Part shown: positions 41,061-54,153 of the stretch, one piece after another
Numbering within the stretch: position 1 is the first letter of the stretch
Layout of the letters: each line of letters starts with the position of its first letter
NCBI GenBank assembly: GCA_947503285.1
Contig: CANNDD010000004.1
Span: 124,001 to 188,000, forward strand
From: an uncultured Croceitalea sp.
Lineage (GTDB): Bacteria > Bacteroidota > Bacteroidia > Flavobacteriales > Flavobacteriaceae
Reading direction: 5' to 3'
DNA: 64,000 nucleotides
The notes under the pieces: generated by a model
Told to the model about the DNA's origin: nothing
The model's input: only the letters and a program-made list of their open reading frames with translations
Database searches by the model: none
Translations under genes and position numbers: made by a program

Positions 41061-41432
41061 ATGCGAAATACAAAATTAGTGTGGATCATACTCCTGGTTT
41101 TTATGGGAAGGATTTCGGCCCAGGACCCCTATTTACAGGGTGATCCTAGTCCAAAAGTGGAGGCTGAGGCAAAAGAACTCCTACAACAATACCAACCCAA
41201 TTTGGTCATGGACAGTAACCAAGTACTACTTTTTGAAAAAACACTTATAGAGTATTTAATGCGTCGGGAAAAAATCTACGTATTGGATGCCCCCGAAAAG
41301 GAGAAGAGATATCTGTTAAAGAAACTAGATAGGTACGAGAATGGTGAAATGTCGAATATTCTCACCAGGCCCCAATTACGTTACTATTTCAAAATCAAGC
41401 GTCAATTACAGCCAGCCGGAGCTTTGCTTTAA
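41061..41432 (+). CDS. Small secreted protein of unknown function
   Basis: 123 residues with a signal peptide (VWIILLVFMGRISAQD) and a charged helical remainder (EAEAKELLQQYQPNLVMDSN). No family is recognised. It overlaps the convergent YceI-like gene by 4 bp at the stop codons. Confidence 0.65.
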   Translation: MRNTKLVWIILLVFMGRISAQDPYLQGDPSPKVEAEAKELLQQYQPNLVMDSNQVLLFEKTLIEYLMRREKIYVLDAPEKEKRYLLKKLDRYENGEMSNILTRPQLRYYFKIKRQLQPAGALL

Positions 41433-41938
41433 TCCAATTCAAAATCAAAATAGACCTTGACCAGGTTGTCTTCACGCTTCTTTTTGATACGGATATCGAA
41501 GTCAGAGGTATACAATTGACCTTCACCCTTGAGCGAATCGGATGATTTTTTAAAAAGAATCGACCATGCCTTTGTAATTCCCTTTATCGTCAAATTCCCC
41601 TTAATCATATAATCGTTTTCCATTTTAGTGATGGACGTACTTTCAAAGTAAAGCCTAGGATGGTCATCTTCATCAAAATATTTCCCATTTTTAAGCGACC
41701 AATTACGCAAACCGTTGTTGGTATCCAATGTTTTAACGGCTACGGAGCCTTTGAGCACACTATTCTCGAGGTTTTGAAAGTCTATGCTTGATTCCGATTG
41801 AAAACCTGCAATTTGCCCCTTTACTTTTTTGGCAACGAATTCAAAGGTAATCGCCGCATTGCTGATTTGATTTTGTTGTGCAAATATCAAATAGGAAACA
41901 CTGAAAAGAAGCAGACTAAGTAATGGTTTTTTGATCAT
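41429..41938 (-). CDS. YceI-like secreted lipid-binding-fold protein
   Basis: A 169-residue protein with a signal peptide ending ...LIFAQ. The YceI fold is a lipocalin-like barrel that binds isoprenoids or amphiphiles. Here ITFEFVAKKVKGQIAGFQSE, VAVKTLDTNNGLRNWSLKNG and YMIKGNLTIKGITKAW follow the family pattern, including the lineup of KYFDEDDHPRLYFES where typical members read F-x(2-4)-P-x-I/L-x-F-x-S. Single gene. Confidence 0.85.
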   Translation of the reverse strand: MIKKPLLSLLLFSVSYLIFAQQNQISNAAITFEFVAKKVKGQIAGFQSESSIDFQNLENSVLKGSVAVKTLDTNNGLRNWSLKNGKYFDEDDHPRLYFESTSITKMENDYMIKGNLTIKGITKAWSILFKKSSDSLKGEGQLYTSDFDIRIKKKREDNLVKVYFDFELD

Positions 41939-42391
41939 GGACAGGCCTTTAACGTACCAAATTTAAGTCGAAAAATCCATACAAAGCTTACGAGGACGGA
42001 CCGATATCCCTTTTACTTTCTAATGTTACAAATCTTTGTTGGCGCCAGGGGAGTGGTGCTTTCCTGTTTTAGGCCAGACATTGCGATAAAGGATGGGAAT
42101 ATTTTATTTTGTTTAACGTTCTGTTCATTTTTAACTTCCGATTAAGACGTTATTCCACGCTGTCACCTATAAAATTAAGGGGATAAGAGGTGAATTCCAG
42201 AAAGGAGTCATACATTTTAAAAATTGAATTTAAATTACTAATTATCAATATCTTATTGATTACTTAACATAATGGTAACCACTGTTAAAATCCGAAAATA
42301 AGATATTCGTCATACTATAATTTATGGGATTTTCCGTAACTTAAACAAAGAAACCACGACCAAAAGCACACTAAGGCTAAAACAGCATTCG
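41939..42391. other. Intergenic region, 453 bp, no gene seen
   Basis: Both strands carry scattered stops and no coding-like frame. I saw no convincing hairpin, repeat or RNA gene. It contains the promoter regions of the divergent genes on either side. Confidence 0.6.
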
Positions 42392-42718
42392 ATGACGGTA
42401 ACATCAGACATAAAGGATTTAGATCAATTGGTCGTTCGTCTAGAACGTAACCACAAATGTGTTTTAAGATTGTCGAAAAAAATGAATTCCTATATCTATG
42501 AACCTAGAAATTATGAATGCTTTATTCGACTGAGGGATCTCAGGGTAAGTCTGAAGGAGTTGGCCAAGGACCATATGCAACTATTTAACGAGTTGCAGCA
42601 TGAGGATTATGATTTTAAGGAGGCTGTTAAAAATGTTGAGGGTCTTTTAAAACGTTTTAAGAAATTTGACCGTGATTTAGCCCAGTACGTATTGGATACA
42701 AGGGGGGATTGTCAATAA
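42392..42718 (+). CDS. Small all-helical hypothetical protein
   Basis: 108 residues, highly charged, predicted helical, with heptad-like runs (DLDQLVVRLERNHKCVLRLS and NVEGLLKRFKKFDRDLAQYV). No signal peptide and no recognised family. It is the last plus-strand gene before the accessory island. The ATG at 42392 is the only good start. Confidence 0.55.
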   Translation: MTVTSDIKDLDQLVVRLERNHKCVLRLSKKMNSYIYEPRNYECFIRLRDLRVSLKELAKDHMQLFNELQHEDYDFKEAVKNVEGLLKRFKKFDRDLAQYVLDTRGDCQ

Positions 42719-42775
42719 TTGCGGGTTTATGTAGTGGGTAGTATCGAGGTTCATGACATATCTTGATATTTTCTA

Positions 42776-43036
42776 TTTTACATAATATAAATTATGATAC
42801 AGATTGGTTGATATGTTTTTCTGATTCAACTTCTTAGCTGTAAGTCATAATTCTATTATATAAAATATCCCTCGCGTTTGTAGCTTTTATTCGAATTACC
42901 AACAGGGTCATCAACCTGTTTAATTTACGCTACGAGAAAATTTTTCACACAAGAGAAAATTTATTCTGAACTTCGAAATTCGTCAATCCTGACGACAAAC
43001 CTTTCGTCTGTACTCATAATTTGCCGTTATGTAAAA
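42776..43036. repeat. Outer inverted repeat TTTTACATAA / TTATGTAAAA of island block A
   Basis: TTTTACATAA (42776-42785) is perfectly inverted at 43027-43036. The pair encloses most of the first R1 copy. Equivalent pairs border the other blocks (46358-46707 and 50990-51043). Confidence 0.65.
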
Positions 43037-43267
43037 TAGCCGCTTGGCCAACAGCATATTGCTTTCATAAAATCAAAATGCTCTGGCATTTTATTTTATA
43101 CGCAATTCTCAGCCGCTTGGCCAGCGCCATTTAAAAGCTAACCTTTTAGATATATTCAAAACTCTCGTATTCGAGGAAATGTGTGCAAGATTTTTTTCTA
43201 CAGCATTCTCGTCAGTTTGCCGCAACAGCTAAAATTTTCTCTGCGAGTAAAATTCTTAGCCCTTGCT
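42845..43267. repeat. Repeat R1, copy A
   Basis: Direct repeat of 46517-46942. The first ~177 bp (42845-43021) match copy B except for one 1-base indel; the rest is diverged but clearly alignable to TTAGCCCTTGCTA. It contains AACAGG/CCTGTT inside GTAGC/GCTAC, and a hairpin at 43058-43106 (ATTGC, ATAAAAT, AATGC with complements) bordered by the 13-bp direct repeat AGCCGCTTGGCCA (43038-43050 and 43111-43123). No coding frame is evident. Confidence 0.9.
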
Positions 43268-43360
43268 AACCTCTCGTCTTGATTGAATCTTTTCTTTAGG
43301 TGTCTCTAATATTATGTAAAATAGGATTTCAACATCGTAACCAGGAAGTGTTTCTTTTAT

Positions 43361-43578
43361 CTTTTTTTCTTGATAAAAAAAGAAACAAAAAAATCAAGGC
43401 TTACAGATAATTTTAGAAACAATGTACGGCTCAGTCACTATATTCTAGAAAGCGTTTTAACTCTTAAGACTTCTTTAAACTATTTGAAACATTAAGTTGG
43501 TTAACAAGCCTAATTACCAACCCTCTAGAATATGGACGTTCCCCTCGCCTATTGTTTGGCTAAAATTCTCTTAGGCCA
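43361..43578. repeat. Repeat R2, copy A (structured)
   Basis: Direct repeat of 47454-47672; it ends 4 bp before the stop codon of the ATPase-TPR gene, i.e. at its 3' side. Stems include CTTTTTTT/AAAAAAAG at the left end and ATATTCTAGA (43440-43449) with TCTAGAATAT (43524-43533). In copy B the same stem is ATATTTTAGG/CCTAAAATAT, with paired compensatory changes. Confidence 0.9.
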
Positions 43579-43581
43579 TAA

Positions 43582-45219
43582 CTACCTTGGTAATTCGACT
43601 TTTACTCTATAATTATTTAAAATCGAATTAAATTTATCATTATCATAAACCTTCTTATAAATTTTATCTTCGTTTAAAAACCTTTGAAAATCCTTACTCC
43701 TTAAACCAAAAGAAAAGGCCAATTGTAAATTTTTAAAAAATTCGTTTAAATTATTCTTTTGTAAATAAATTTCCGCCAAAGTCGATGTCGCAATTGGGTT
43801 CTGAGGTTTTAACTCTAGAGCTTTATAGACATACTCGAATGCCTTATCTAAATCACCCTTTAACCTATATGCATTAGAAATTGAATTATACCCAGCCTCA
43901 TGGCCCGGTAATACTTGTAAAAATTTTTGATAATATTCTATGGCATTTTCGAAATCTTTTTGATTAAGGTAAATATTTCCCAGTAGATGAAGAGACGCAT
44001 AATGTCTAGGGTTTTTCCGAACTATATCTAAACAGATTTTTTCTGCCGCCTTTATTCTTTTAAGGTAATAACAAGCTAAAGCTTTTTCAAACTTATAATC
44101 TAAGTTTTCCGGTTTAAGGGCTATGGCAGTTTCAGCATAATTCAAAGCCTCTTTGAAAGAATCTATTTCTTTATAAGCTTGAGAAAGAAGAAATAATGCC
44201 TCAGGAGATTCATTATTCAAAGTTAAGGCTTCTTTCAACTTCTTAATTTTTATTGCATTGTCTCGACTAGCCTTAGATTCTTCTATCAGAGATTCAACTT
44301 CTTTTAAGACTTTGAATTGCTTAATTTCCCGTTTTGTCAACTCATTTTTTGTTAATTCTCCAAATAGTTGCAAATAATCTTCTTCAATAGGAACAACACT
44401 TTTTTGGTTTCTTTTGGTAGAGTAATTTATTTTAAATTTTTCTTCTTCTTCTAACTCTGGGTCTGAGTGGATTACAAAAACTTTTTCAATTAGCTCTTGT
44501 TCTTTATTTATTATTGTCTTAGCCTTGTTTATAAACCTTAATTCTTTGTATCTGTCTTCTGGTCTAGCATAATATGGTATTCTTGTCAAAACAAAATATA
44601 TCTCTGGTAATTTATCTGTTAATTTATTTGTGTCACTTTTCAAACTACTAATAACCCTGGCAATTCCAGAAATATTTTCTTCATTGTTAGCCGCTAAGGT
44701 TACCACAGTATCTGCCAATAAGGTCATTGCTATTCCCGAAATATCGGTTATTCCAGTTCTTGAATCAATTAAAAGAAAATCTGGGTTTAACTCATTTTTT
44801 ATTAACTCCTTAAGATGGAGCAATAATTGAACACCGTGGCTTGAATCTGAATAAAACAAATTTTTCCAATCAACAGAAGCTAACTTTTTCCAATAATCGT
44901 TTGAATTAATATTACCAGCAGGCATTATATTAATTGAACCGTTTAACTTACTATTATATTTAATATCAACGATGTGATTTTCTATTTTCTGAGGTATAAA
45001 ATCATCTTCTTGAAAATCAACTAAGTATTCAACCATACCCTTGTCAACTTGATTTAAATCAAGATAATCTCCAAATTTTAAGTGTAATCCAGGCGCCTCT
45101 AAATCAAAATCAATGAGGCAAACTTTCTTGCCAAAATCAGCAAGTCGCATTGCAATATTTGACAAAGTCAATGACCTTCCAACACCACCTTTATAAGAAT
45201 AGAATGTTATTGTTTTCAT
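43582..45219 (-). CDS. KGGVGR-type ParA/MinD-like ATPase with C-terminal TPRs
   Basis: Starting at the ATG at 45219, 1 bp after the antitoxin stop, the 545-residue protein begins MKTITFYSYKGGVGRSLTLS. The deviant Walker A has Arg where ParA/MinD has Lys-Thr (GVGR instead of GVGK). CLIDFDLEAPGLH and FLLIDSRTGITDISG are the switch and Walker B regions. From ~residue 325 about five TPR units follow (for example HLLGNIYLNQKDFENAIEYY). Families with this KGGVGR ATPase occur in defence-island contexts. It is translated from the same unit as HigBA. Role unknown; ATP-dependent sensing or effector scaffolding is plausible. Confidence 0.85.
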   Translation of the reverse strand: MKTITFYSYKGGVGRSLTLSNIAMRLADFGKKVCLIDFDLEAPGLHLKFGDYLDLNQVDKGMVEYLVDFQEDDFIPQKIENHIVDIKYNSKLNGSINIMPAGNINSNDYWKKLASVDWKNLFYSDSSHGVQLLLHLKELIKNELNPDFLLIDSRTGITDISGIAMTLLADTVVTLAANNEENISGIARVISSLKSDTNKLTDKLPEIYFVLTRIPYYARPEDRYKELRFINKAKTIINKEQELIEKVFVIHSDPELEEEEKFKINYSTKRNQKSVVPIEEDYLQLFGELTKNELTKREIKQFKVLKEVESLIEESKASRDNAIKIKKLKEALTLNNESPEALFLLSQAYKEIDSFKEALNYAETAIALKPENLDYKFEKALACYYLKRIKAAEKICLDIVRKNPRHYASLHLLGNIYLNQKDFENAIEYYQKFLQVLPGHEAGYNSISNAYRLKGDLDKAFEYVYKALELKPQNPIATSTLAEIYLQKNNLNEFFKNLQLAFSFGLRSKDFQRFLNEDKIYKKVYDNDKFNSILNNYRVKVELPR

Positions 45220-45220
45220 A

Positions 45221-45727
45221 TCAAGCACACATTTCAAAAATTGAACCTCTTTGTCTTACTCTTCTTTGTATCTCAAAAGGGTTAACACCTCTGGAACTTA
45301 AAAATTTAAAAGGTTTTGGCTGCTTTGCTTCTACTGAAACGGCAGTCTCATCCTTCATCAACTTATATTCAGTATTAAGTATTTCTTGGTCTATTTTAAG
45401 TAGCTGTGAAAACTCACGAATCATGTTTTTAGACAAGCCTCGTTTTTTATTAAGAACCATAGAAACAACACCTTTAGAACCAATCAAAGGCGTTAAATCC
45501 TTTTGAGTGATTTCTAAATATTTCATCTTTAATTTAATAATTTCAATAGGGTCACCTTTTGCAATTGGATAGTTTTCTTGCTCATATAAATCCACAAGTT
45601 TTTCTAAAAGCTCAAACTCGTCGATTAGCTCTTGTTTTTTTTCAAAATCAGGATTATCCCCTAATTTTTCCATTAAGGCTATCGCGTTCTTGTACTCTTC
45701 TTCCGTTTTTATTACTTTAATCTTCAT
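45221..45727 (-). CDS. higA: HigA-like antitoxin with C-terminal extension
   Basis: Starting at the ATG at 45727 (MKIKVIKTEEEYKNAIALM, the standard Bacteroidota HigA opening) the protein has 168 residues; a TTG 18 bp upstream is the alternative. A central Xre-type HTH (EITQKDLTPLIGSKGVVSMVLN) is followed by an additional ~50-residue tail (KPFKFLSSRGVNPFEIQRRV), longer than the usual antitoxin. It lies between the toxin and ATPase genes with 14- and 1-bp gaps. It should neutralise HigB and repress the operon through the palindrome at 46138. Confidence 0.85.
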   Translation of the reverse strand: MKIKVIKTEEEYKNAIALMEKLGDNPDFEKKQELIDEFELLEKLVDLYEQENYPIAKGDPIEIIKLKMKYLEITQKDLTPLIGSKGVVSMVLNKKRGLSKNMIREFSQLLKIDQEILNTEYKLMKDETAVSVEAKQPKPFKFLSSRGVNPFEIQRRVRQRGSIFEMCA

Positions 45728-45741
45728 CTGGTTGCGATTTT

Positions 45742-46104
45742 TCAATTAAACATATCCACATCATACTGCTCATTCTTTTTGCAAAGTGCTGTGTATTCTT
45801 TATGCGTACCTATCCATTTTAAATAAAGTCTAGATTTTTTTAAACTTGGATGAAACTGATATTTAAAAATTAGTCTTAAATGGTTTCCTTTCAAATCAAA
45901 AACGACTCGATTACTTGATTCTGATTTTTTGTCTTTTTTTCCCAGTAAATCGACCGCTTTAGCCCCAAACTCAATAACCATGTCCTGTGGTTTCTCCCAT
46001 GTACAAAATCTAACTAGAGTGACCCACGTTTCTATAGCCACTTGATACTGAGGATTCTTCTCCCCAAAATCTTTTAAGTGTTTTATAGTTATGATGTGAA
46101 TCAT
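45742..46104 (-). CDS. higB: HigB-family mRNA interferase toxin
   Basis: 120 residues of the HigB/RelE superfamily: MIHIITIKHLKDFGEKNPQY, SSNRVVFDLKGNHLRLIFKY and LYLKWIGTHKEYTALCKK, which are characteristic strands of the Bacteroidota HigB group. Toxins of this family cut mRNA on the ribosome. First gene of the operon, in the reversed toxin-first order normal for higBA. A -7 element and an operator lie upstream. Confidence 0.92.
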   Translation of the reverse strand: MIHIITIKHLKDFGEKNPQYQVAIETWVTLVRFCTWEKPQDMVIEFGAKAVDLLGKKDKKSESSNRVVFDLKGNHLRLIFKYQFHPSLKKSRLYLKWIGTHKEYTALCKKNEQYDVDMFN

Positions 46105-46122
46105 TTCTGTTCTAATTTACAT

Positions 46123-46154
46123 CAAAAGTAATTAAAAGTTCTCATTTTGAGAAC
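46123..46154 (-). promoter_or_regulatory. higBA promoter and operator palindrome
   Basis: On the minus strand TACTTTTG (46130-46123) fits the Bacteroidota -7 consensus TAnnTTTG, 18 bp before the higB start. Just upstream lies the perfect palindrome GTTCTCA (46138-46144) - TTT - TGAGAAC (46148-46154), placed as an operator for the HigA HTH would be. Confidence 0.7.
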
Positions 46155-46220
46155 CTTTATTATATATTTAACTTAGCCTTTTTGTTTTTATTGCTTTTTT
46201 GAAAACTTTATAACAAGAGA

Positions 46221-46379
46221 CATTTCACACACATTACACTCCCCTCCTACCGTCGGCTCGTATAATAAGTGTTCCATTACCTTTTGAGAAGAAAATTTTT
46301 AGAAAGAAAAAAATCAATGAAGAGGGTAACAACTTTCGCTTTTAACCAAAGCTCAAGTTACATAACGCGGAACATTATG
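46221..46379. repeat. Repeat R3, copy A
   Basis: Direct repeat of 50844-51010, with a third partial copy at 53765-53824. It lies ~115 bp upstream of the higB start, i.e. on the 5' side of the cargo. Shared words include CTCCCCTCCTA, ATAATAAGT, TTCCATTACCTTTT, TTTCGCTTTTAACCAAAGC and the terminal TTACATAACGCGGAACATTAT. A plus-strand frame crosses it but looks like non-coding repeat. Confidence 0.88.
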
Positions 46380-46707
46380 ATACAGATTCGTCTAATGTGT
46401 AAAACGGCGCATGCTTGCATTTTACATAATTGCAGATATGACCTTCGCGTCAGCGAATCATATCGTCAGCCATTATGTAAAAGCCGTTTTACTGGAATGG
46501 TACTTGACGGCTGTAGGTCATAATTCTATTATATAAAATATCCCTCGCGTTTGTAGCTTTTATTCGAATTACCAACAGGGTCATCAACCTGTTTAATTTA
46601 CGCTACGAGAAAATTTTTCACACAAGAGAAAATTTATTCTGAACTTCGAAATTCGTCAATCCTGACGACAAACCTTTCGTCTGTACTCATAATTAGTCGT
46701 TATGTAA
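46358..46707. repeat. Large imperfect palindrome joining R3 to R1, block B
   Basis: TTACATAACG (46358-46367) is perfectly inverted at 46698-46707. Inside, at 46401-46490, AAAACGGC/GCCGTTTT encloses TTTTACATAAT (46420-46430)/ATTATGTAAAA (46472-46482), GATATGA/TCATATC and TTCGC/GCGAA around the loop GTCA: four nested perfect stems. No coding frame explains this. Confidence 0.85.
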
Positions 46708-46942
46708 AATTGCCGCTCGGCCAACAGCTTATTGCTTTCATAAAATAAAAATGCTTAGGCATTTTATTTTATACGCAATTCCCAGCCGCTTGGCCAGCGC
46801 CAAAAAAAGCAAAACCTTTTAGATTCTTTTGTAATATGCGATTTATGAGAAATTCTCCGCCAGTAAATTTTTCATAGAATTCTCGTCAACTTGCCGCAAC
46901 AGCTAAAAATTACTCTGCGAGATAATTTCTTAGCCCTTGCTA
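46517..46942. repeat. Repeat R1, copy B
   Basis: Counterpart of 42845-43267. The hairpin at 46731-46779 keeps all stems of copy A (ATAAAAT...ATTTTAT around AATGC/GCATT) while the loop differs (TTAG versus TCTG). It is followed by the gene at 47005-47439, whereas copy A runs almost directly into R2. Confidence 0.9.
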
Positions 46943-47004
46943 CCTTCCTCGTCCATAGAAAACTTTTTTAAATTTCTATTTGACATAATGTTGAGATATG
47001 CCAG

Positions 47005-47439
47005 TCATTTGAAATTCTCTATTTGATTGTAGATTATATATTCGCCTAACTTCTCCATACCTTTTGAAAAGACCTTTATTTCATAATTTGATAGATAGGT
47101 ATGCATACCAACGTTATTCTCGAAAAAGACGAAATCATCTGGTTTTGCTAGGGTTTTCGAAGGTATCAGGAATATTAGAGGCTCTTTCTCAGGGATAAAG
47201 CCCAATAATGCTACCCAAAGGTTTTCTTTAGGCTCGCCCAACTTTTCTTTGGGAACTTTTGAGCTTTGTTGGGTAATCAAATCCATTGGTTGTAAAAAGA
47301 TTTCTGATTGCTTTCCGTTTTCACTTTTTATAATAAAATCAACGCTTTCCCTGCCATTTTCTTTTCGTACGATTTTAAGGCCTGCATTGGTCATTTCCAA
47401 CTTTAAAAAACTTTCTGCTTGGCTTTGAAATTCTTCCAT
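47005..47439 (-). CDS. Hypothetical protein, possible PD-(D/E)xK-like fold, between R1 and R2
   Basis: 144 residues, cytoplasmic. The segment ESVDFIIKSENGKQSEIFLQ resembles the D-x(n)-E-x-(K/Q) core of restriction-like nuclease folds, and ENLWVALLGFIPEKEPLIFL resembles the second half of small proteins of that type. The match is only by eye; a non-catalytic relative is equally possible. It is a one-gene insertion between repeats R1 and R2, which adjoin each other in copy A. Confidence 0.5.
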   Translation of the reverse strand: MEEFQSQAESFLKLEMTNAGLKIVRKENGRESVDFIIKSENGKQSEIFLQPMDLITQQSSKVPKEKLGEPKENLWVALLGFIPEKEPLIFLIPSKTLAKPDDFVFFENNVGMHTYLSNYEIKVFSKGMEKLGEYIIYNQIENFK

Positions 47440-47453
47440 TCAATAAAGTTACT

Positions 47454-47672
47454 CTTTCTTTTTCCTTGATGAAAAAGAAACAAAAAATCAAGGCTTACAG
47501 ATAATTTTGGAAACAATGTACGGCTCAGTCGCTATATTTTAGGATCCATTGTAACTCTTAAGACTGTTCTAAGACCAAAGAAACATTTGAATTATCAAGA
47601 AAAATGGTAACCAGCCCCCTAAAATATGGCCGCTCCCCTCGCCTATTGTTTTGCCAAAATTCTCTTAGGCCA
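47454..47672. repeat. Repeat R2, copy B (structured)
   Basis: Counterpart of 43361-43578, ending 6 bp before the stop of the restriction enzyme gene. Its left hairpin is TTTCTTTTTC/GAAAAAGAAA; the second stem is ATATTTTAGG (47534-47543) with CCTAAAATAT (47618-47627). Confidence 0.9.
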
Positions 47673-47678
47673 GATTCA

Positions 47679-49646
47679 TTATTCAGCGGTTAACTTTTTT
47701 ATCAACTCTAAGGTATCACCTTCGTTCGAATTACTTTTCATGTACTCTTCATATTGGTTGTAGCTATCTTTTATTAGTTCTTGATAAGTAACCAATCTCG
47801 TATTTGCAGTCGCCATCATTTGAATTTGACTTTCCTTTGTTCTTGGGTCTTCCCAACCTTTCAAAACTTTACCAACTATACAGACACATTCAATAACAGG
47901 GTTATTCTCACCAGCTTCTTCTAATAATTTTCTCAGACCAGATTTATATTTATCAACTTGTTTTTGTAAAGCATATACATCGGTACTGACACTTGCTCTT
48001 TTGAGTTCAATGATAATATGTTTTCCAGAAGCTTTTTTATATTTAATATCTACGCGTCCTTTTTCTTCTTCTGGCGTTAGACTTGCATCAATATTATCAA
48101 ATTCTGAACTTATTTGCTTCTCCATGTAAGGATGTTCAGTCGCTCTATCCCATGAAGGATCAAGAAGCCATAGATGATTGAACAAAAACTCTTGAAGAAT
48201 TTTTTCTAAAGCATCATTATCATGTACGTGTTCTTGAAATTTTTCTAAAACCTCTATTCTCTGCTTAGTTATTTGGTAGTATAAAGAAGCTTCAATATCA
48301 TCAAAATTTTTAAAAACTGTTACGAAATCAGCTATATTATCAATGGATACATTCTCAAGAGTGTCTAATGCATCCTTATAACGCAAACTCTCAAATGCGA
48401 TAACAGCATGCGAAAACAGGGTACTTCTATGATTGTCATCAACGGTAATTTGATTTATTTTTGAAAATAAAGCTTTAGCCTTTTTTTTAGAATCAGAGCC
48501 AAGTTTTTTGTACCAATTTTCTATATGTTCGTTTTTTAAGGCTTCATTTTCAGCTTCATCACTTTTGAAGATAATTCTCTCTTTCTCAATATGTTTTAGT
48601 TCTGATTTTATAAATGATTTCAAATCGACATACCTGCTATCATCCTCTATTAATCCTTGCCTACTTGAAGTTGCTATATCTGGCAGCTTATTATCATCAA
48701 GGAAATCTGCTCTAATTTCACCGAATATGTATTTAATATATAAACTCCCCTCCCGATATTCATCTAGTATATTTTCCTGTGAAACTTTTCCTCTCATTAA
48801 GATTGGAATTTTATTCAAATTATCGTACTCGTCTTGAAGTTGGTTTGATTCTTTAACCAACCCAATCCATCCTGATATTTTGGAGTCTTCATTTATTAGA
48901 TTATCTCTTTTTTCCGATTTTTCTACATTTTTTGCTAGAGTCAAATATTCTTTTGATTCTTCGCCATAATACCATAAATATTGAATTTTGTGAAAGTAAT
49001 CCCGGTCTTCAACTTTAATATCTTTTCCATCAATTTTTACTAAAAAGTTATTCTTAGCTCCAATTATGCTAAAACGTCTTGAAAGTCTCTTTTTTAAATG
49101 CCTAGACGTTTGACTAATATTTTTTTTAAGCTCATTTAGAACTATTTTAGTCCCATTTGATACGTGAAATCCCTCGCAAGACAAATCTTCTGGAAAATAT
49201 GGACTCTTACTTTTAGAATCAATTTGGGTTTTTATTTTAGATGAATCCAATAGTAGACCGTTACGATCGCCTTCTGTTGTCGCGCTGTAAACGGATATTT
49301 TATTTGCTATTGAAAATAGAGATAGTTTCCCTATTCCTTTGCGTCCCATAACAGGTCTACTATGTTTTGGAGTTATAACCTCATTATTTTCTCTTTTTCG
49401 ATATCCAACTGTTAAAAATTTCTTGTTGATATCAGATAATGACATCCCATGTCCATCATCAGTTATAATAATCTCATCATTTTCAACATCTATTTCGATA
49501 TTTACTTTTTCGGCATCGGCATCCCATGCATTTGCGACAACTTCTGAAATTACGGAGGGAATATTGCTATATAAATTAATACCCAAATGATTTAAAACAT
49601 TCAGGTCAATAGTCATTTCATATTTAGCGCTACTTCTGTCGCCCAT
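47679..49646 (-). CDS. GHKL-ATPase restriction endonuclease, BbrUII/HgiDII-like
   Basis: 655 residues. The N-terminal GHKL ATP-binding domain has SEVVANAWDADAEKVNIEID (N box), IITDDGHGMSLSDI (G1) and GRKGIGKLSLFSIA (G2). After a long middle region, a C-terminal nuclease core of PD-(D/E)xK type reads GRVDIKY...HIIIELKRA (D533, E547, K549). This combination is that of HgiDII-type type II restriction enzymes. The cognate methyltransferase gene is 33 bp upstream. HgiDII recognises GTCGAC, but the specificity of this enzyme is not shown by sequence alone. Confidence 0.85.
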   Translation of the reverse strand: MGDRSSAKYEMTIDLNVLNHLGINLYSNIPSVISEVVANAWDADAEKVNIEIDVENDEIIITDDGHGMSLSDINKKFLTVGYRKRENNEVITPKHSRPVMGRKGIGKLSLFSIANKISVYSATTEGDRNGLLLDSSKIKTQIDSKSKSPYFPEDLSCEGFHVSNGTKIVLNELKKNISQTSRHLKKRLSRRFSIIGAKNNFLVKIDGKDIKVEDRDYFHKIQYLWYYGEESKEYLTLAKNVEKSEKRDNLINEDSKISGWIGLVKESNQLQDEYDNLNKIPILMRGKVSQENILDEYREGSLYIKYIFGEIRADFLDDNKLPDIATSSRQGLIEDDSRYVDLKSFIKSELKHIEKERIIFKSDEAENEALKNEHIENWYKKLGSDSKKKAKALFSKINQITVDDNHRSTLFSHAVIAFESLRYKDALDTLENVSIDNIADFVTVFKNFDDIEASLYYQITKQRIEVLEKFQEHVHDNDALEKILQEFLFNHLWLLDPSWDRATEHPYMEKQISSEFDNIDASLTPEEEKGRVDIKYKKASGKHIIIELKRASVSTDVYALQKQVDKYKSGLRKLLEEAGENNPVIECVCIVGKVLKGWEDPRTKESQIQMMATANTRLVTYQELIKDSYNQYEEYMKSNSNEGDTLELIKKLTAE

Positions 49647-49679
49647 AAAATTATCTTCTAAGTAATTTTTGAAATTGAA

Positions 49680-50744
49680 TCACACACTTGACGGAGTCAA
49701 ATGATTTTTAATTATTGCCTGACCAATTCTTTTCGCGTATTCTGGTGGTACCGCGTTTCCAATTAATCTTGCCATACTTTCCATACTGTTCCCAACAAAC
49801 TTATAGGATTTAGGGAATGATTGTAATGTAGCACCTTCTCGTATTGATAATGCTCTATTTTCCACTGGATGAACAAAGCGTCCATTTGAAACACTGAAAA
49901 ACTTTGTAGTAATTGTTGGAGACGGTTTATCCCACCATAGCCTTCCAAAAGTATCTTTGAAAGATGAATCTCTTCCAACAAAACAATTTAATTGAAGCTC
50001 AGGGTCATTTGCAAAACTGAGGCGATTACCTCCATTTTTCTTGACTTTTTTTAGACGGCGTAAAGTTAACTCACTAATATTAGACACTGAGTGATTAAAA
50101 TTTGTTCTGTCTTTGTGACCCGCGCTTATCTTAGGAAAACCATTTACTTCACCAATAACATCTCGCACATTTAGCTTCTTACCCCCTTTAACTGGTTCTA
50201 ATTCTTTATTCGTAACTCTATTAGCTATTAGGGTAAATCTTTTTCTATTTTGAGGAACTCCGTATTCGGAGGTATTATGTACTTTAAAGTGAACGGTATA
50301 TTTATTTTTTTCTAACCAATTTATGAACGCTTCTAATCCGCTTTCTCCTTTTTTACGAAGCACTCCCGGAACATTTTCAACAACAACATAGCCTGGGTTA
50401 AAATACCTTACGAATCTTTCAAATTCAACTAATAAATTTTTTGATTCTTTGGACTTTTTCTTATCAGTATTTATTATACTCCAAAACTGGCAAGGACTGC
50501 ATCCGATTAGAAGTAAATTGTCATCATTTCGCTTAAGGCTAAGCCGTGATTGAAGGTCTTTCTCTTTTAAATCAAAAACATTTGCTTTTATAAATTCAGC
50601 TCCTTTTATGTTTGTTTTATAGGTTTCTCGACAGTTTTCCTCGTAATCAATACCTGCTAAAACTTTAATTCCAGCCTTTTGCATTCCATAACTCATTCCT
50701 CCGCCGCCACAAAAGAAATCAACAGCTTCTATTTTTTCAGTCAT
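49680..50744 (-). CDS. DNA (cytosine-5) methyltransferase of the restriction-modification pair
   Basis: Starting at the ATG at 50744 (MTEKIEAVDFFCGGGGMSYG) gives 354 residues; an upstream start at 50765 is possible. C5-methyltransferase motifs are in order: I (DFFCGGGG), IV with catalytic Cys85 (GCSPCQFWS), VI (VVENVPGVL), VIII (QNRKRFTLIA), target-recognition region (~190-290), IX and X (REGATLQSFP, IGNAVPPEYAKRIG). It protects host DNA from the adjacent GHKL restriction enzyme. The likely -7 element TAATTTTG lies at 50770-50763. Confidence 0.93.
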   Translation of the reverse strand: MTEKIEAVDFFCGGGGMSYGMQKAGIKVLAGIDYEENCRETYKTNIKGAEFIKANVFDLKEKDLQSRLSLKRNDDNLLLIGCSPCQFWSIINTDKKKSKESKNLLVEFERFVRYFNPGYVVVENVPGVLRKKGESGLEAFINWLEKNKYTVHFKVHNTSEYGVPQNRKRFTLIANRVTNKELEPVKGGKKLNVRDVIGEVNGFPKISAGHKDRTNFNHSVSNISELTLRRLKKVKKNGGNRLSFANDPELQLNCFVGRDSSFKDTFGRLWWDKPSPTITTKFFSVSNGRFVHPVENRALSIREGATLQSFPKSYKFVGNSMESMARLIGNAVPPEYAKRIGQAIIKNHLTPSSV

Positions 50745-50843
50745 AAAAAAGCACACTTTTAACAAAATTACGAAAATTAATTTTTGATTTTAGTTTTATT
50801 TTGTAAGTGAATTTCTACGTTTAAAAACATGGAAATTTGAGCT

Positions 50844-51010
50844 AAGAGAAGCCATTCCACACACATTAAACTCCCCTCCTATCGTCGGGTCGCATAATAA
50901 GTATTCCATTACCTTTTAGAAGAAAGTTTTTAGAAAGAAAAAAATAAAAGAAGATTTGTAAATACTTTCGCTTTTAACCAAAGCTCAAGTTACATAACGC
51001 GGAACATTAT
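50844..51010. repeat. Repeat R3, copy B
   Basis: Counterpart of 46221-46379, ~100 bp upstream of the methyltransferase start, so again on the 5' side of the cargo. It ends in the same TTACATAACGCGGAACATTAT, which here begins a compact hairpin. Confidence 0.9.
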
Positions 51011-51043
51011 AGAACAAAAATGTTCCATAATCCGACGTTATAA
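50990..51043. repeat. Compact attC-like hairpin between cargo modules
   Basis: ATAACG (50994-50999)/CGTTAT (51036-51041), then CGGA/TCCG, a 3-nt one-sided bulge ACA, TTAT/ATAA, an A-C mismatch and GAACA/TGTTC around AAAA. Inverted outer boxes, an asymmetric bulge and conserved ends recall integron attC sites, but the outer boxes do not match GTTRRRY exactly and there is no wide central spacer. Confidence 0.6.
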
Positions 51044-51076
51044 AAAATTGTGATAAGTTATATACCTAATAGCTGT

Positions 51077-51382
51077 CTATTCCCAACCTTTATGGAGGTT
51101 CCAATCATAGTCCATGCGGTGACTTAAAACCCTAAGAATAAAAATTCCGCTCGAAGTTTGCAGATAGAATATCGTGTGCACTTTATAAGAGAATCTTTTT
51201 AAATCTTCAATAAATTCTGAGGCATCTCGGCCTAAATTCCCATTTTCAGCAAGTATTTCAAATGCTTCATGCATATCATAAAAATACTTTTGTGCTTGAG
51301 TAAGTCCGAATTTGTATATGCCAAACTCGTACATTTCGGCCAAATCAATCTCAGCTTTAATGGATAACTTATAAACGCCCAT
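51077..51382 (-). CDS. parE: ParE/RelE-superfamily toxin
   Basis: From the ATG at 51382 the protein has 101 residues: MGVYKLSIKAEIDLAEMYEF, QAQKYFYDMHEAFEILAENG, RFSYKVHTIFYLQ, IFILRVLSHRMDYD, the classic ParE pattern with VLSHRMD at the end. ParE toxins inhibit DNA gyrase. It overlaps the antitoxin gene by 14 bp. Expressed after the antitoxin, the usual parDE order. Confidence 0.92.
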   Translation of the reverse strand: MGVYKLSIKAEIDLAEMYEFGIYKFGLTQAQKYFYDMHEAFEILAENGNLGRDASEFIEDLKRFSYKVHTIFYLQTSSGIFILRVLSHRMDYDWNLHKGWE

Positions 51383-51626
51383 CTTCCCGCATGCGTACTT
51401 CAACTTCTTTCATGATATCGGGTAAAGATTTAGAACTAACACCACTTTCAAGCCCTTCAACTAGTTTCGTTTTAAGAGAAAGAAATTTAGATTTTTTGGC
51501 TTGATCCTGACGTACAAGATTTCGCAAATACTCACTGTCGTTAGTATATTCGCCTGCTTCGATTTGAGCTTTTATCCATTTATCTTGCTGTTCAGTAAAG
51601 GTTACCGTTTTACGAACTGTTGCCAT
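51369..51626 (-). CDS. parD: ParD-like antitoxin
   Basis: 85 residues with an N-terminal ribbon-helix-helix (VRKTVTFTEQQDKWIKAQI, NDSEYLRNLVRQD) and a C-terminal toxin-wrapping helix. First gene of the parDE pair. It should bind ParE and repress the operon. Confidence 0.92.
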   Translation of the reverse strand: MATVRKTVTFTEQQDKWIKAQIEAGEYTNDSEYLRNLVRQDQAKKSKFLSLKTKLVEGLESGVSSKSLPDIMKEVEVRMREDGRL

Positions 51627-51709
51627 ATTAAAATGTTTAAATTGTCATACTATTGGTGTAATATAATGAAAGGATTTTGATATTTCAACAATATATGATA
51701 AGGATTTCC

Positions 51710-52522
51710 TTACTTTTTTCTGGATTTCAATTCTTCTTTTGCAAAAGATTCGGTAACCAACTCAAATTTGGTCTTTCCTAAAAACACCAATTCAGTTCTT
51801 AGGTAATAATTTTTCTTTGCTTCTAAATTTATTTTGATCTTCTTTCTTTTTATTTCAAACTCCGTTAATCCTGACTCAACCATAAAAACTTCATATTCCC
51901 CATTTGAAATAGTTCCAATTTTTTTGCCATTGGCCTTCAAAGTAAAATAGTTTAATGCCCCTGCAACTTTACCACGTCTATATACATGAACATAGGCTCT
52001 GGTTTCTGTAACCTTTTCAAAATCAATCTTATGTAATTTATTTTGATTGGATACGTTTGATAGTCCATCTATTGTATTTGTATCAATTGGTTTTGGGTTT
52101 GATTTGTCTTTAGTACCAACTGTATCGTTTATTCCAATTCTTTGATTGTTTTCGGCAGGTAACCCAACTATTACGGATCTCTTTTTAAGTGTATTTTTTT
52201 TAGGGGTTACCCCCTTGGTCTTTTTTATAGGATCCTCCTCTTTGTTAACGATGGTGTCAGTTACTACTTTATTTATTTTGGCAGGAACTCCTAGTTCTTT
52301 TTCCTCTAGCGACTCATTTGGCGCGAAAAAGAAGAAATAGATCATTCCTGTAAGCATTAGTACAGATGCGGAAACAAAAAGATATAATCCGCCGTTAGTG
52401 CCCTTCGGAATTTTCGTGCTTACGTTTTTCCACAGAACATCTTCTTCAAATTCAATACCTATAAGACTATCCAAACTATCAACTTTGGTTTTGATGAAGT
52501 TATCAAATTCGTTTTCTTTCAT
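51710..52522 (-). CDS. Single-pass anti-sigma-like protein with DUF2846-like exported domain
   Basis: 270 residues: a short cytoplasmic N-terminus (FDNFIKTKVDSLDSL...), one membrane helix (GLYLFVSASVLMLTGMIYFFF, ~45-65), a Lys/Thr-rich linker, and a C-terminal exported domain from ~residue 165 (RAYVHVYRRGKVAG, NGEYEVFMVESGLTEFEIKR, NYYLRTELVFLGKTKFELV). The start overlaps the sigma-factor stop by 4 bp, as anti-sigma genes do. The exported domain resembles the separate secreted protein at 53113-53502, an unusual arrangement. Confidence 0.75.
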   Translation of the reverse strand: MKENEFDNFIKTKVDSLDSLIGIEFEEDVLWKNVSTKIPKGTNGGLYLFVSASVLMLTGMIYFFFFAPNESLEEKELGVPAKINKVVTDTIVNKEEDPIKKTKGVTPKKNTLKKRSVIVGLPAENNQRIGINDTVGTKDKSNPKPIDTNTIDGLSNVSNQNKLHKIDFEKVTETRAYVHVYRRGKVAGALNYFTLKANGKKIGTISNGEYEVFMVESGLTEFEIKRKKIKINLEAKKNYYLRTELVFLGKTKFELVTESFAKEELKSRKK

Positions 52523-53049
52523 GGCGTACTGTTTTTAACTACCAGCTTTTTTAGTATTGCCCTAGCCTTAGTCAATTGTGACCTCGAAGTGCTTGTAGCA
52601 ATATTTAATTTTTCGGAAATTTCAGCATGTGAATAGCCTTCTATCGCATATAGATTAAAAACCGTGCGATAACCTATGGGTAGGGAAAGGATCATTTTAT
52701 AAATATATTGGGCATCAACATCCAAATTAATGGTGTAACTATTTTCAATTAGTTCGTTTTCCTCTAAATCATAAAACAACATTTTCTTTTTTCTTAAAAA
52801 AGAGAGGCATTCATTGACCATAATTTGCCTTACCCACCCCTCAAAACTCTTGGCATCCCTATACTCAACTTTAGTTAGATTATTGAAGACCTTTATAAAG
52901 CCTTCGGCTAAAATATCCTCAACATCTTCCTTATTTGAAACGTATCGATAGCAATGGACAAACATTTTTTGGGCATACGTTTTGTAAAGCTTTTTTTGGG
53001 CTCTTCTATTTCCATGAATGCATTTTATAACTATTTGATTACTAATCAA
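52519..53049 (-). CDS. ECF-type RNA polymerase sigma factor
   Basis: 176 residues. Region 2 is GNRRAQKKLYKTYAQKMFVH to SNKEDVEDILAEGFIKVFNN, with KSFEGWVRQIMVNECLSFLR completing it; region 4 is LPIGYRTVFNLYAIEGYSHA with SEKLNIATSTSRSQLTKAR. The first in-frame start codon is TTG at 53049; no ATG precedes the conserved region, so a non-ATG start is needed. Coupled by a 4-bp overlap to the anti-sigma-like gene. Confidence 0.9.
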   Translation of the reverse strand: MISNQIVIKCIHGNRRAQKKLYKTYAQKMFVHCYRYVSNKEDVEDILAEGFIKVFNNLTKVEYRDAKSFEGWVRQIMVNECLSFLRKKKMLFYDLEENELIENSYTINLDVDAQYIYKMILSLPIGYRTVFNLYAIEGYSHAEISEKLNIATSTSRSQLTKARAILKKLVVKNSTP

Positions 53050-53112
53050 AAGACTTATATTTTAAAGGTTGAAATTCAATAAAGTACTAGTAGCTACTGT
53101 TTACATACTATA

Positions 53113-53502
53113 TTACTTTATGCTTTTTAATTCCGTTTTTGCAAACTCTTCAGTAACAACTACGAAATCAGTCTTTCCAAGAAACATATTACGCACCAAA
53201 ACGGAACGGAGGTAATAGGTTTTTCCTGCTTGTAGTTCAAGTGCTATGGTTTTACCCCTTACTTCAAAATTGGTTTTCCCTACCGGTAACTTTAAAATTA
53301 TTTTTTTTCCATTTTTGATTTTACCTGTTTTTTCTCCATTGATTTTAAGGTTAAATACAGCACCGAAACCTACAAAATTGTTAGGCCGATAAACACAAAC
53401 AATAGCGTTTGCCCCTGATTCTTTGGGAGGATCGCTTTTTTGATTTGGAAATGTAGCAAGAGAAGAAAACAAGAATGCCAATACTAAAAGTGTTTTTTTC
53501 AT
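53113..53502 (-). CDS. Secreted DUF2846-like protein, paralogue of the anti-sigma exported domain
   Basis: 129 residues with a signal peptide (LLVLAFLFSSLATFPNQ). The mature part (CVYRPNNFVGFGAVFNLKIN, KLPVGKTNFEVRGKTIAL, YYLRSVLVRNMFLGKTDFVV, EEFAKTEL) aligns end to end with the C-terminal domain of the membrane protein at 51710-52522. It lies 63 bp upstream of the sigma gene on the same strand and so is probably the first gene of a three-gene unit. Possible roles are ligand, competitor or target of the regulatory pair. Confidence 0.75.
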   Translation of the reverse strand: MKKTLLVLAFLFSSLATFPNQKSDPPKESGANAIVCVYRPNNFVGFGAVFNLKINGEKTGKIKNGKKIILKLPVGKTNFEVRGKTIALELQAGKTYYLRSVLVRNMFLGKTDFVVVTEEFAKTELKSIK

Positions 53503-53529
53503 TTTCGATTATTTAAAGATTGATACTAT

Positions 53530-53700
53530 GAACTCATTTAGGCTTTTTGGATTGAAGCGAAAATCAGTCATTTTTTGTTCGATTGAAGTCTTTTTTAAGG
53601 TGCGTAGCTGGGCTACGGAATGAGAAAAAGACAAAAAGCGAGTGAAAAAGAGCTCCCGAACCGTCGGGATTTAGCCAATTGAAAAAGCCAAAATGAGTTC
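53530..53700. repeat. ~170-bp palindromic element with nested hairpins
   Basis: The arm 53530-53554 is nearly complementary to 53676-53700 (GAACTCATTT / AAATGAGTTC, GGCTTTTT / AAAAAGCC, ATTG / CAAT). Inside are GTCTTTTT (53588-53595)/AAAAAGAC (53625-53632), GTAGC/GCTAC (53604-53616) and TCCCGA/TCGGGA (53654-53669). No coding frame. A MITE-like or folded DNA/RNA element. Confidence 0.75.
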
Positions 53701-53764
53701 TATATATAGAATGCATTAAACCACAAAAACGCTGTCTAAGGATCAAAATTTATAATAAAAGCCC

Positions 53765-53824
53765 GTTCCACACACTTTTTCGCAGGTAGGCTACCCCCCT
53801 CCCACCATCGGCTCGCATAATAAG
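53765..53824. repeat. Partial R3 copy at the right edge of the island
   Basis: TTCCACACAC, CCCTCCCACCATCGGCTCGCATAATAAG match the first part of R3 (copies at 46221 and 50844), with an insertion after CACACAC. The rest of R3 is missing. It appears to mark the right limit of the accessory island. Confidence 0.7.
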
Positions 53825-54153
53825 CCCGGCCGAACGTGCCTTTTTCGGTATGGGTGGTGTCTATTCATTGCTTATGCATTATTTTTAAGGAATTCATGAA
53901 CCTAGAATTCAATTTGGCCAAAGCCTAATCGTATTCGTTCATTTCATTATCTTTTGGAAAGAAAGTTTAAAAAAGTCAAAGGACTCTTACCGACTTGAAA
54001 CAACAGCCAATGGCATTATTTTGGAAGGTCTTGTAGACCTTTGAAAATATGAGTGAGATGCAGCTCAGAAAGTGGGCAAATTCTTAACCATTGCCAACCG
54101 CTCATCTACAAAAGCTTTTTTTTGGATTCCCTCGGTAGTATATCAAAAAGGGG
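53825..54153. other. Intergenic remainder, no gene seen
   Basis: No coding-like frame. A short hairpin AAGGTCT (54025-54031)/AGACCTT (54035-54041) lies ~110 bp past the stop of the esterase-serine hydrolase gene but lacks a T tract on that strand. Confidence 0.5.

Follow-up and report, generated by a model that had tools for sequence, protein, structure and literature searches.

Which process could place quite different genes between copies of the same structured repeats? The question is raised by a 64,000-nucleotide stretch from an uncultured Croceitalea sp. of the Flavobacteriaceae (contig CANNDD010000004.1; hereafter the window), in which an initial annotation had described, at 42,776-51,626, a cassette-like accessory island built around three repeat blocks, R1, R2 and R3. 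Self-comparison of the window bears out the repeats, with R1 copies at 42837-43136 and 46510-46809 (95% identity), R2 copies at 43378-43578 and 47472-47672 (two stretches, 85% and 77%) and R3 copies at 46211-46378 and 50843-51010 (two stretches, 78% and 96%). The genes lie in the order described and on a single strand, namely higBA, an ATPase-TPR gene, an open reading frame (ORF) of 144 amino acids (aa), restriction-modification genes, which NCBIfam and Pfam matches confirm, and parDE; the cassette-like picture of different cargo held in one orientation between the same structured blocks stands as well. The left boundary of the island is the chromosomal dif site, and we propose that its modules are very probably exchanged at dif by the host recombinases XerC and XerD, perhaps by way of a folded single strand, with homologous recombination in the R blocks also changing cargo.

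The left end of the array (42775-42802, minus strand) reads CTGTATCATAA TTTATA TTATGTAAAAT, a Xer site of the 11-6-11 type. At up to two mismatches, its 23-base core (42774-42796) has exactly one match each in 37 of 59 relatives and none in the reversed control; at this threshold the other 22 relatives, the congeners G003 and G005 among them, yield nothing (G codes denote genomes, L codes loci). The cumulative GC skew of the window peaks at dif, as expected for a replication terminus. The initial annotation had seen no recombinase, and none occurs among the cargo proteins of the window scanned with Pfam and NCBIfam. The borders of the units are nevertheless dif-like XerC/XerD sites, and both recombinase genes lie elsewhere in the genome: XerD scores 339.8 bits against an NCBIfam cut-off of 329.6, whereas XerC, with 303.5 bits, stays under its cut-off of 335.15 and yet is the best match.

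From dif outward, short C modules alternate with large D modules. Since forward (F) and inverted (I) dif-like sites take turns in the window, XerC and XerD half-sites alternate, so that XerD half-sites point into the D modules and XerC half-sites into the C modules, as follows.

42775-42802, minus strand: chromosomal dif, with the XerC arm at 42792-42802, the 6-bp centre at 42786-42791 and the XerD arm at 42775-42785
42803-43008, minus strand: C module 1, a 206-bp spacer between two XerC half-sites, read from the sequence
43009-43037, minus strand: inverted dif-like site I1, with the XerD arm at 43027-43037, a 7-nt centre and the XerC arm at 43009-43019
43027-46374, minus strand: D module 1, with R3, higBA, the ATPase-TPR gene, R2 and the proximal part of R1
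46355-46385, minus strand: forward Xer site F1, with XerC arm, 9-nt centre and XerD-like arm
46386-46681, minus strand: C module 2, 296 bp, with a palindrome at 46421-46481 and part of the second R1 copy
46682-46710, minus strand: inverted dif-like site I2
46700-51006, minus strand: D module 2, with R3, methyltransferase, restriction enzyme, R2, the 144-aa ORF and the proximal part of R1
50987-51048, minus strand: hairpin of F2 (50987-51017) and I3 (51020-51048), with the minimal, nearly spacerless C module 3
51038-54050, minus strand: outermost D module, its far end decayed and its outer border presumed

Read along the minus strand, a D module thus consists of F, R3, cargo, R2, sometimes a small ORF, R1 and I. 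The C modules measure 206, 296 and about 2 bp in the window and some hundreds of base pairs at most elsewhere. What the initial annotation had called R1 comprises three things: a module end, an inverted dif-like site (TTTTACATAACGGCAAATTATGAGTACA) and a portion of a spacer module. We place the right boundary of the island at about 54.05 kb, where the outermost module decays and no F site is recognised; a faint R3 remnant precedes it (53764-53824, 18.8 bits, E 4e-4). GC content is 0.30-0.35 over 42-54 kb in 1-kb steps, and 0.33-0.48, mostly above 0.39, in the rest of the window. The palindrome in C module 2 has two XerD-like arms (TTTTACATAAT...ATTATGTAAAA) and may be a nested minimal module; the 131 bp around it are 92% alike in G001.

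Such sites recur beside R3 in other genomes. R3 begins with the second half of F, whose commonest form is TTTGTACTATAAT-GTTCYGCG-TTATGTAACTT. Among 164 R3 matches above 40 bits (18 without the start of the model; 137 distinct starts), 132 of the 137 distinct starts show the F core (..)TAAT-centre-TATG, mostly as CTATAAT-GTTCYGCG-TTATGTAAC. In the 128 starts with sufficient upstream sequence, the stretch from ATAAT to TTATG spans 8 nt in 125 and 9 nt in 3, which corresponds to a centre between 11-bp arms of 9 nt (125/128) or 10 nt (3/128). The outer part of the XerC arm of F matches that of dif, though it lies outside both the R3 model and the F-site search pattern. Of 132 F sites, 62 have the I pattern upstream and 70 do not, whereas 50 single-letter shuffles gave 1.4 on average and 5 at most; I has a 7-nt centre in the window and, by the same counting, also in 51 of the 55 far I sites of other loci. 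F and I can pair. As single-stranded DNA, the F2/I3 hairpin (50985-51045) folds with -13.3 kcal/mol (z -7.2, 0 of 200 shuffles), and among hairpins of this short type the paired XerC arms agree in 3.37 of their five outermost bases, compared with 2.18 of 5 across loci (0 of 5000 shuffles; 19 short sites picked regardless of complementarity, close relatives included). In the long type, represented by the 55 far I sites, the inverted XerC arm seems to hold one extra base, and without that base, its position picked post hoc, the arm is complementary to the F arm at an average of 9.2 instead of 7.6 of 11 positions. This extra base recalls integron attC sites, which have extrahelical bases.

The initial annotation had suggested a search for the blocks in other genomes and a look at the same locus in relatives. 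Of the eight genomes in the genus, six have R1, whose long matches show 75-89% identity and which adjoins dif beside the same flanking genes (fatty-acid-type by eye), and R3 is matched at E ≤ 1e-3 in 129 of 299 sampled genomes of the family, both counts including the genome itself. Recurrence on this scale excludes chance as the source of the repeats. The best R3 match reaches E ≤ 1e-8 in 99 of these 129; the weaker ones may include chance matches, and in g128, a large genus of the family, many genomes have no match or only a weak one. At order level, matches occur in 51 of 296 sampled genomes, own family included; those in other families are short, with E ≥ 4.5e-7, and cover query positions 54-131 in the A/T-rich middle of R3, and we read them as chance. 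Among 72,556 plasmids, none matches the R blocks. Named genomes scanned with the F-site pattern gave at least 118 stretches, 80 of which were used. Nearly all bear Flavobacteriaceae titles (Maribacter, Aquimarina, Lacinutrix, Flavivirga, Polaribacter, Zobellia and others), the exceptions by title being one Cytophagaceae and one Pleomorphochaeta metagenome bin.

The blocks are tied to dif in position and in direction. Within two mismatches, dif occurs in 12 of 26 regions taken around R3 matches, some of which were extended towards the expected dif side, whereas about 0.1 would be expected if R3 were placed anywhere. Thirty-seven loci contain a single dif together with one or more R matches above 35 bits (36 are distinct, as L140 duplicates another locus); in these, all 135 R matches lie on the strand of dif and on its XerC side. 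Over the loci as a whole, the orientation of R matches within a locus is uniform (371/371). On the other, XerD side of dif, a related gene of about 432 codons is present in G007 (L030, 10060-11358), G004 (L032, 12146-13444) and G002 (L033, 1914-3215); it is absent from the window.

While the blocks are kept, the cargo at this conserved locus differs within the genus. Eight cargo units of four genomes of the genus, G000, G001, G006 and G007, show no mutual nucleotide match at 1e-10 save one, of 80 bp, between two units of G006. The two complete cargos of the window are without match at 1e-30 in the congeners G001 and G006, and have relatives in two and four of 397 genomes besides their own, in other genera; in G136 and G295 these relatives lie about 1 kb and 85 bp, respectively, from an R3. 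Across 52 distinct R3-to-R2 units the cargo measures 2,643-11,472 bp (median 4,965), and 174 of 214 cargo ORFs of at least 80 aa run in the direction of the element. The initial annotation had taken all cargo for defence or toxin-antitoxin genes. Cargo is often defence, not exclusively: when one large cargo protein per unit was scanned for 20 of the 52 units, 13 of 20 matched PADLOC models at 1e-15 or better, some of them partially, among them restriction enzymes, Gabija GajA, Septu PtuA, DRT, PifA, Tmn and PsyrT, and other types occur too, such as transporter-like genes on the opposite strand in G001 and regulator-like genes in G007 (both by eye).

One such module is common to two genera. G082 and G221 share 9,298 bp at 99.46% identity (L103, 8463-17758; contig C11 of G082, L242 and L102). 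The block starts at F and stops in the middle of I, the counterpart of site I1, where both genomes read TTTTACATAACG and diverge afterwards; the flanking C modules differ between the two genomes on both sides. We read this 9.3-kb unit as a D module that has moved between genera, presumably recently, and whose ends lie in Xer sites. In another genus, at a second, dif-like site, the left flanks of G246 and G329 agree at 98.4% over 2,505 bp and stay nearly identical up to the XerC arm of F, where a diverged R3 and cargo without similarity follow. Lone units away from dif in G033 and G013 combine a dif-type XerC arm with a foreign right arm. Complete single units at dif-like sites off dif lie at L107, L110 and L104, in three genomes, and the second site of G246 holds another module in a relative (L249).

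We infer from these borders that XerC and XerD carry out the exchange. A new unit of one D and one C module would enter at dif by XerC strand exchange and leave a working dif behind. Its partner form may be a folded single strand in which F and I pair across the C module into a dif-like hairpin, as do attP1 and attP2 of CTXphi; exchange of this folded D+C unit with dif would be completed by replication, with an intact dif left at the array end and F, which would be a poor substrate, left at the inner border. Because the array ends in an intact dif, dimer resolution can go on and further modules can join. The centres of attP1 and attP2, of 12 and 5-7 bp, are described as unsuited in duplex form (PMC4246890, in the part used here). 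It is the F/I hairpin, together with similarly off-canonical centres of 9 and 7 nt, that makes XerC exchange with a folded single strand our preferred but unproven mechanism. Within the same explanation, modules might alternatively be exchanged as duplex, as in Acinetobacter, and homologous recombination between R blocks would provide a second route of cargo change. A bolder version, which we regard as a tentative possibility and on balance doubt, is that the dimer-resolution machinery of the Flavobacteriaceae serves as an integron-like system, in which XerC would join single-stranded D+C units, folded at the F/I hairpin, to dif; dif would be restored at every step and so become the entry point of a one-way library of phage-defence cassettes spanning the family, with R1-R3 as dedicated cis elements of transfer.

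Several observations weigh against exchange by Xer at dif. Neither a module circle nor a recombination reaction was seen. The centres of F and I (9 and 7 nt) depart from the 6 bp of dif, and duplex recombination at these sites may therefore fail. No empty second site was found among the four genomes of the genus concerned: it is occupied between both flanks in G246 and G329, and only the right flank is matched in G013 and G328; in G328 homology begins at the dif-like site, with a different sequence on its left and no R block found. Decay of R3 shows no age gradient from dif, the nearest copy being better in 7 of 13 cases (rho -0.17, p 0.30). Within two mismatches, 14 of the 26 R3-centred regions have no dif, a set that includes second loci, contig ends and regions possibly stopping before dif. 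Selection also enters, as 9 of the 37 loci were by choice taken on the XerC side only (the other 28 agree) and the 80 loci of the pattern scan were obtained by the F-site pattern itself. Finally, G025 and G006 have cargo and R2 in common at 92.5% identity, with change points at the R3 end and just after R2, which are not Xer sites, and the 95% identity of the R1 copies in the window does not stop at I1 but reaches about 100 bp farther into the D module, a pattern suggestive of gene conversion. In view of these change points and of the R1 identity across I1, we read homologous recombination or gene conversion as acting on the R blocks too.

The R blocks themselves are structured to different degrees.

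43038-43300, minus strand: proximal part of R1, structured, within the D module (hairpin covariation, 34 sequences)
43379-43577, minus strand: R2 of D module 1, a conserved long hairpin (27 sequences)
46221-46374, minus strand: R3 of D module 1, from sequence comparison
47473-47671, minus strand: R2 of D module 2, from sequence comparison
50852-51006, minus strand: R3 of D module 2, from sequence comparison

In the R2 hairpin 98.7% of cells are paired and 8 pairs are changed on both sides, with 45 cells so changed against 14.1 ± 2.6 in shuffles and at most 6 in slid controls; further pair types are not in excess (15 versus 15.6 in shuffles). One R2 folded with DNA energies gives a weak signal (z -1.6); support for the structure comes from covariation. 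The covarying hairpin of R1 has 55 cells changed on both sides, compared with 18.4 ± 3.3 in shuffles and at most 3 in slid controls; for both blocks the structures were derived from the same alignments that were used for counting. R3 is conserved, but without a clear fold (RNAalifold gives 11 pairs, 1 changed on both sides); it ends in GTGTG, which had raised the idea of a group II intron. An Rfam scan of 41400-54500 returned only three matches (E 1.9-3.4), each below its gathering score. R1-R3 might act in cis when a single strand is replicated or transferred, or might carry signals for expression of the cargo. Near the R2/R1 end of D modules, the 144-aa ORF (orf144) belongs to a family of 136-144 aa found at 15 loci in several genera; it has no sequence match in Pfam, NCBIfam or PDB, and is a candidate module-specific factor.

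How else could such an array arise? Two similar copies in one genome might reflect local segmental duplication, yet the blocks occur in 6 of 8 genus and 129 of 299 family genomes with different cargo, and relatives carry other cargo at the same place between the same blocks, which refutes duplication and leaves it practically no probability. The integron cassette array, to which the initial annotation had compared the island, also consists of one-way, exchangeable genes at an anchor site with folded sites. As a description of behaviour the comparison is apt, and structured sites, mostly one-way genes and cargo of toxin-antitoxin and defence type fit a classical array whose integrase was lost. 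Integrons differ in recombinase, sites and anchor, however, and the units of the dif array are multi-gene: its borders are dif-like, its cargo of 2.6-11.5 kb is usually multigenic, and among 16 matches to integron integrase in the genome none passes the cut-off (best 90 bits versus 265). With no integrase over the cut-off and an anchor that turned out to be dif, we dropped the integron reading, which we consider highly improbable.

A hotspot of homologous recombination, also proposed in the initial annotation, would have RecA-type crossover in R1-R3 swap the cargo for incoming DNA, with the neighbourhood of dif merely the starting place of the array. The R blocks are alike enough for it (77-96% within the window, 75-89% between genomes of the genus where R1 matches are long), and both the change points of G025/G006, in R3 and after R2, and the R1 identity that crosses I1 speak for such a component. 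What crossover in the R blocks leaves unexplained is that F and I bound the units, that the R matches lie on the strand of dif, that the block of 99.46% identity breaks off at the centre of I and that lone units stand at second dif-like sites; a component of this kind is retained beside borders that are Xer sites, and as the whole explanation we judge it quite unlikely. Unlikely, too, is that the modules are remnants of dif-integrating prophages or satellites with single-stranded DNA (PhiCjT23-like or filamentous) that lost their structural genes, R1-R3 being replication or packaging signals. Structured, covarying ends would suit such an origin, as would the dif-flanked PhiCjT23-like prophages reported in the pertinent part of PMC9719478 for Flavobacterium and the paired sites of the CTXphi kind (PMC4246890, same part as above). 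Against it, a 1.5-kb query with R3, R1 and R2 found no match in 50,697 phage records, the F-site patterns are without exact match in viral contigs, the four viral contigs with the R2 pattern contain no R block, and no replication or capsid family appears among the 25 commonest Pfam families per set, tallied for 151 cargo proteins.

Exchange by Xer at dif has counterparts elsewhere. The dif (pdif) modules of Acinetobacter are located on plasmids and, in one chromosome, in a module island (excerpts of PMC13141974 and PMC12907356). Like the flavobacterial array, they have alternating inverted Xer sites, C and D modules and toxin-antitoxin and accessory cargo (PMC13141974, in the same excerpt); there, single modules are described as swapped between flanks by host XerC/XerD, whereas here Xer dependence is deduced. 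A swap as a unit with borders in the sites is indicated by G221/G082 and, for one border, by G246/G329, with G025/G006 as the counter-example. The flavobacterial array differs in centres of 7 and 9 nt instead of the 6-bp pdif spacer, in its place at the chromosomal dif instead of Rep_3/OrfX plasmids, in R matches that are one-way per locus, in D modules with common long structured ends R1-R3, and in short C modules, Flavobacteriaceae hosts and often phage-defence cargo. In our classification it lacks two defining features of Acinetobacter dif modules, the 6-bp spacer and the plasmid backbone, but works like such modules. The main chromosomal dif has been considered uninvolved in module formation, as stated in the portion of PMC12907356 used here; the flavobacterial arrays that end in the main dif speak against this.

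An integrative mobile element exploiting Xer (IMEX) of the CTXphi type likewise sits at dif, integrates by host Xer and has two inverted sites of unusual centre able to pair in one strand (PMC4246890, as far as the part cited goes), a pairing that is predicted here; in contrast to it, no phage genes were recognised in the window modules, units stand in tandem with many cargos, and spacer modules are partly resident. PhiCjT23-like prophages also have flavobacterial hosts and dif flanks, but carry replication and capsid genes (part of PMC9719478). Filamentous and tailless prophages of marine Vibrio share dif as a hotspot and defence genes in an accessory locus; they are whole, with viral genes, and the consulted part of PMC11630473 does not mention a frame like R1-R3. 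LME-1 of Legionella is located at dif and uses a host recombinase, yet is a single element with its own dif mimic in a single-recombinase system (PMC9765430, in part). No report of a dif cassette array in Bacteroidota was found in the literature searched, which left most subscription journals and bioRxiv outside its coverage.

The genes carried by the modules of the window, and the outermost repeat remnant, are these.

43582-45237, minus strand: KGGVGR-type ATPase with TPR repeats, matched by PADLOC PDC-M28B
45221-45745, minus strand: HigA, the presumed antitoxin by its position beside HigB, without family match
45742-46104, minus strand: HigB toxin (Pfam PF09907), without NCBIfam match
47005-47439, minus strand: orf144, a recurrent family with matches in 15 loci including its own
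47679-49646, minus strand: restriction enzyme of BbrUII/HgiDII type (NCBIfam NF050001, 772 bits, cut-off 550)
49680-50765, minus strand: cytosine-5 DNA methyltransferase (PF00145, TIGR00675)
51077-51626, minus strand: parDE, within the outermost D module
51710-52522, minus strand: DUF2846-like gene, within the outermost D module
52519-53049, minus strand: ECF-type sigma factor, within the outermost D module
53764-53824, minus strand: the R3 remnant, within the outermost D module

The ATPase-TPR gene sits behind higBA; PDC-M28B is a PADLOC candidate, and together these genes possibly form a single defence operon.

If exchange by Xer at dif is right, dif, usually regarded as a housekeeping site, would be the dock of a gene exchange shared within a large bacterial family, one that is rich in defence and manages without a dedicated recombinase. 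New anti-phage systems could then be sought at a simple address, between R3 and R2 on the XerC side of dif, and the arrays would bear on how far Xer tolerates inverted sites beside dif. A second integron-like strategy would thereby become testable in cultured strains.

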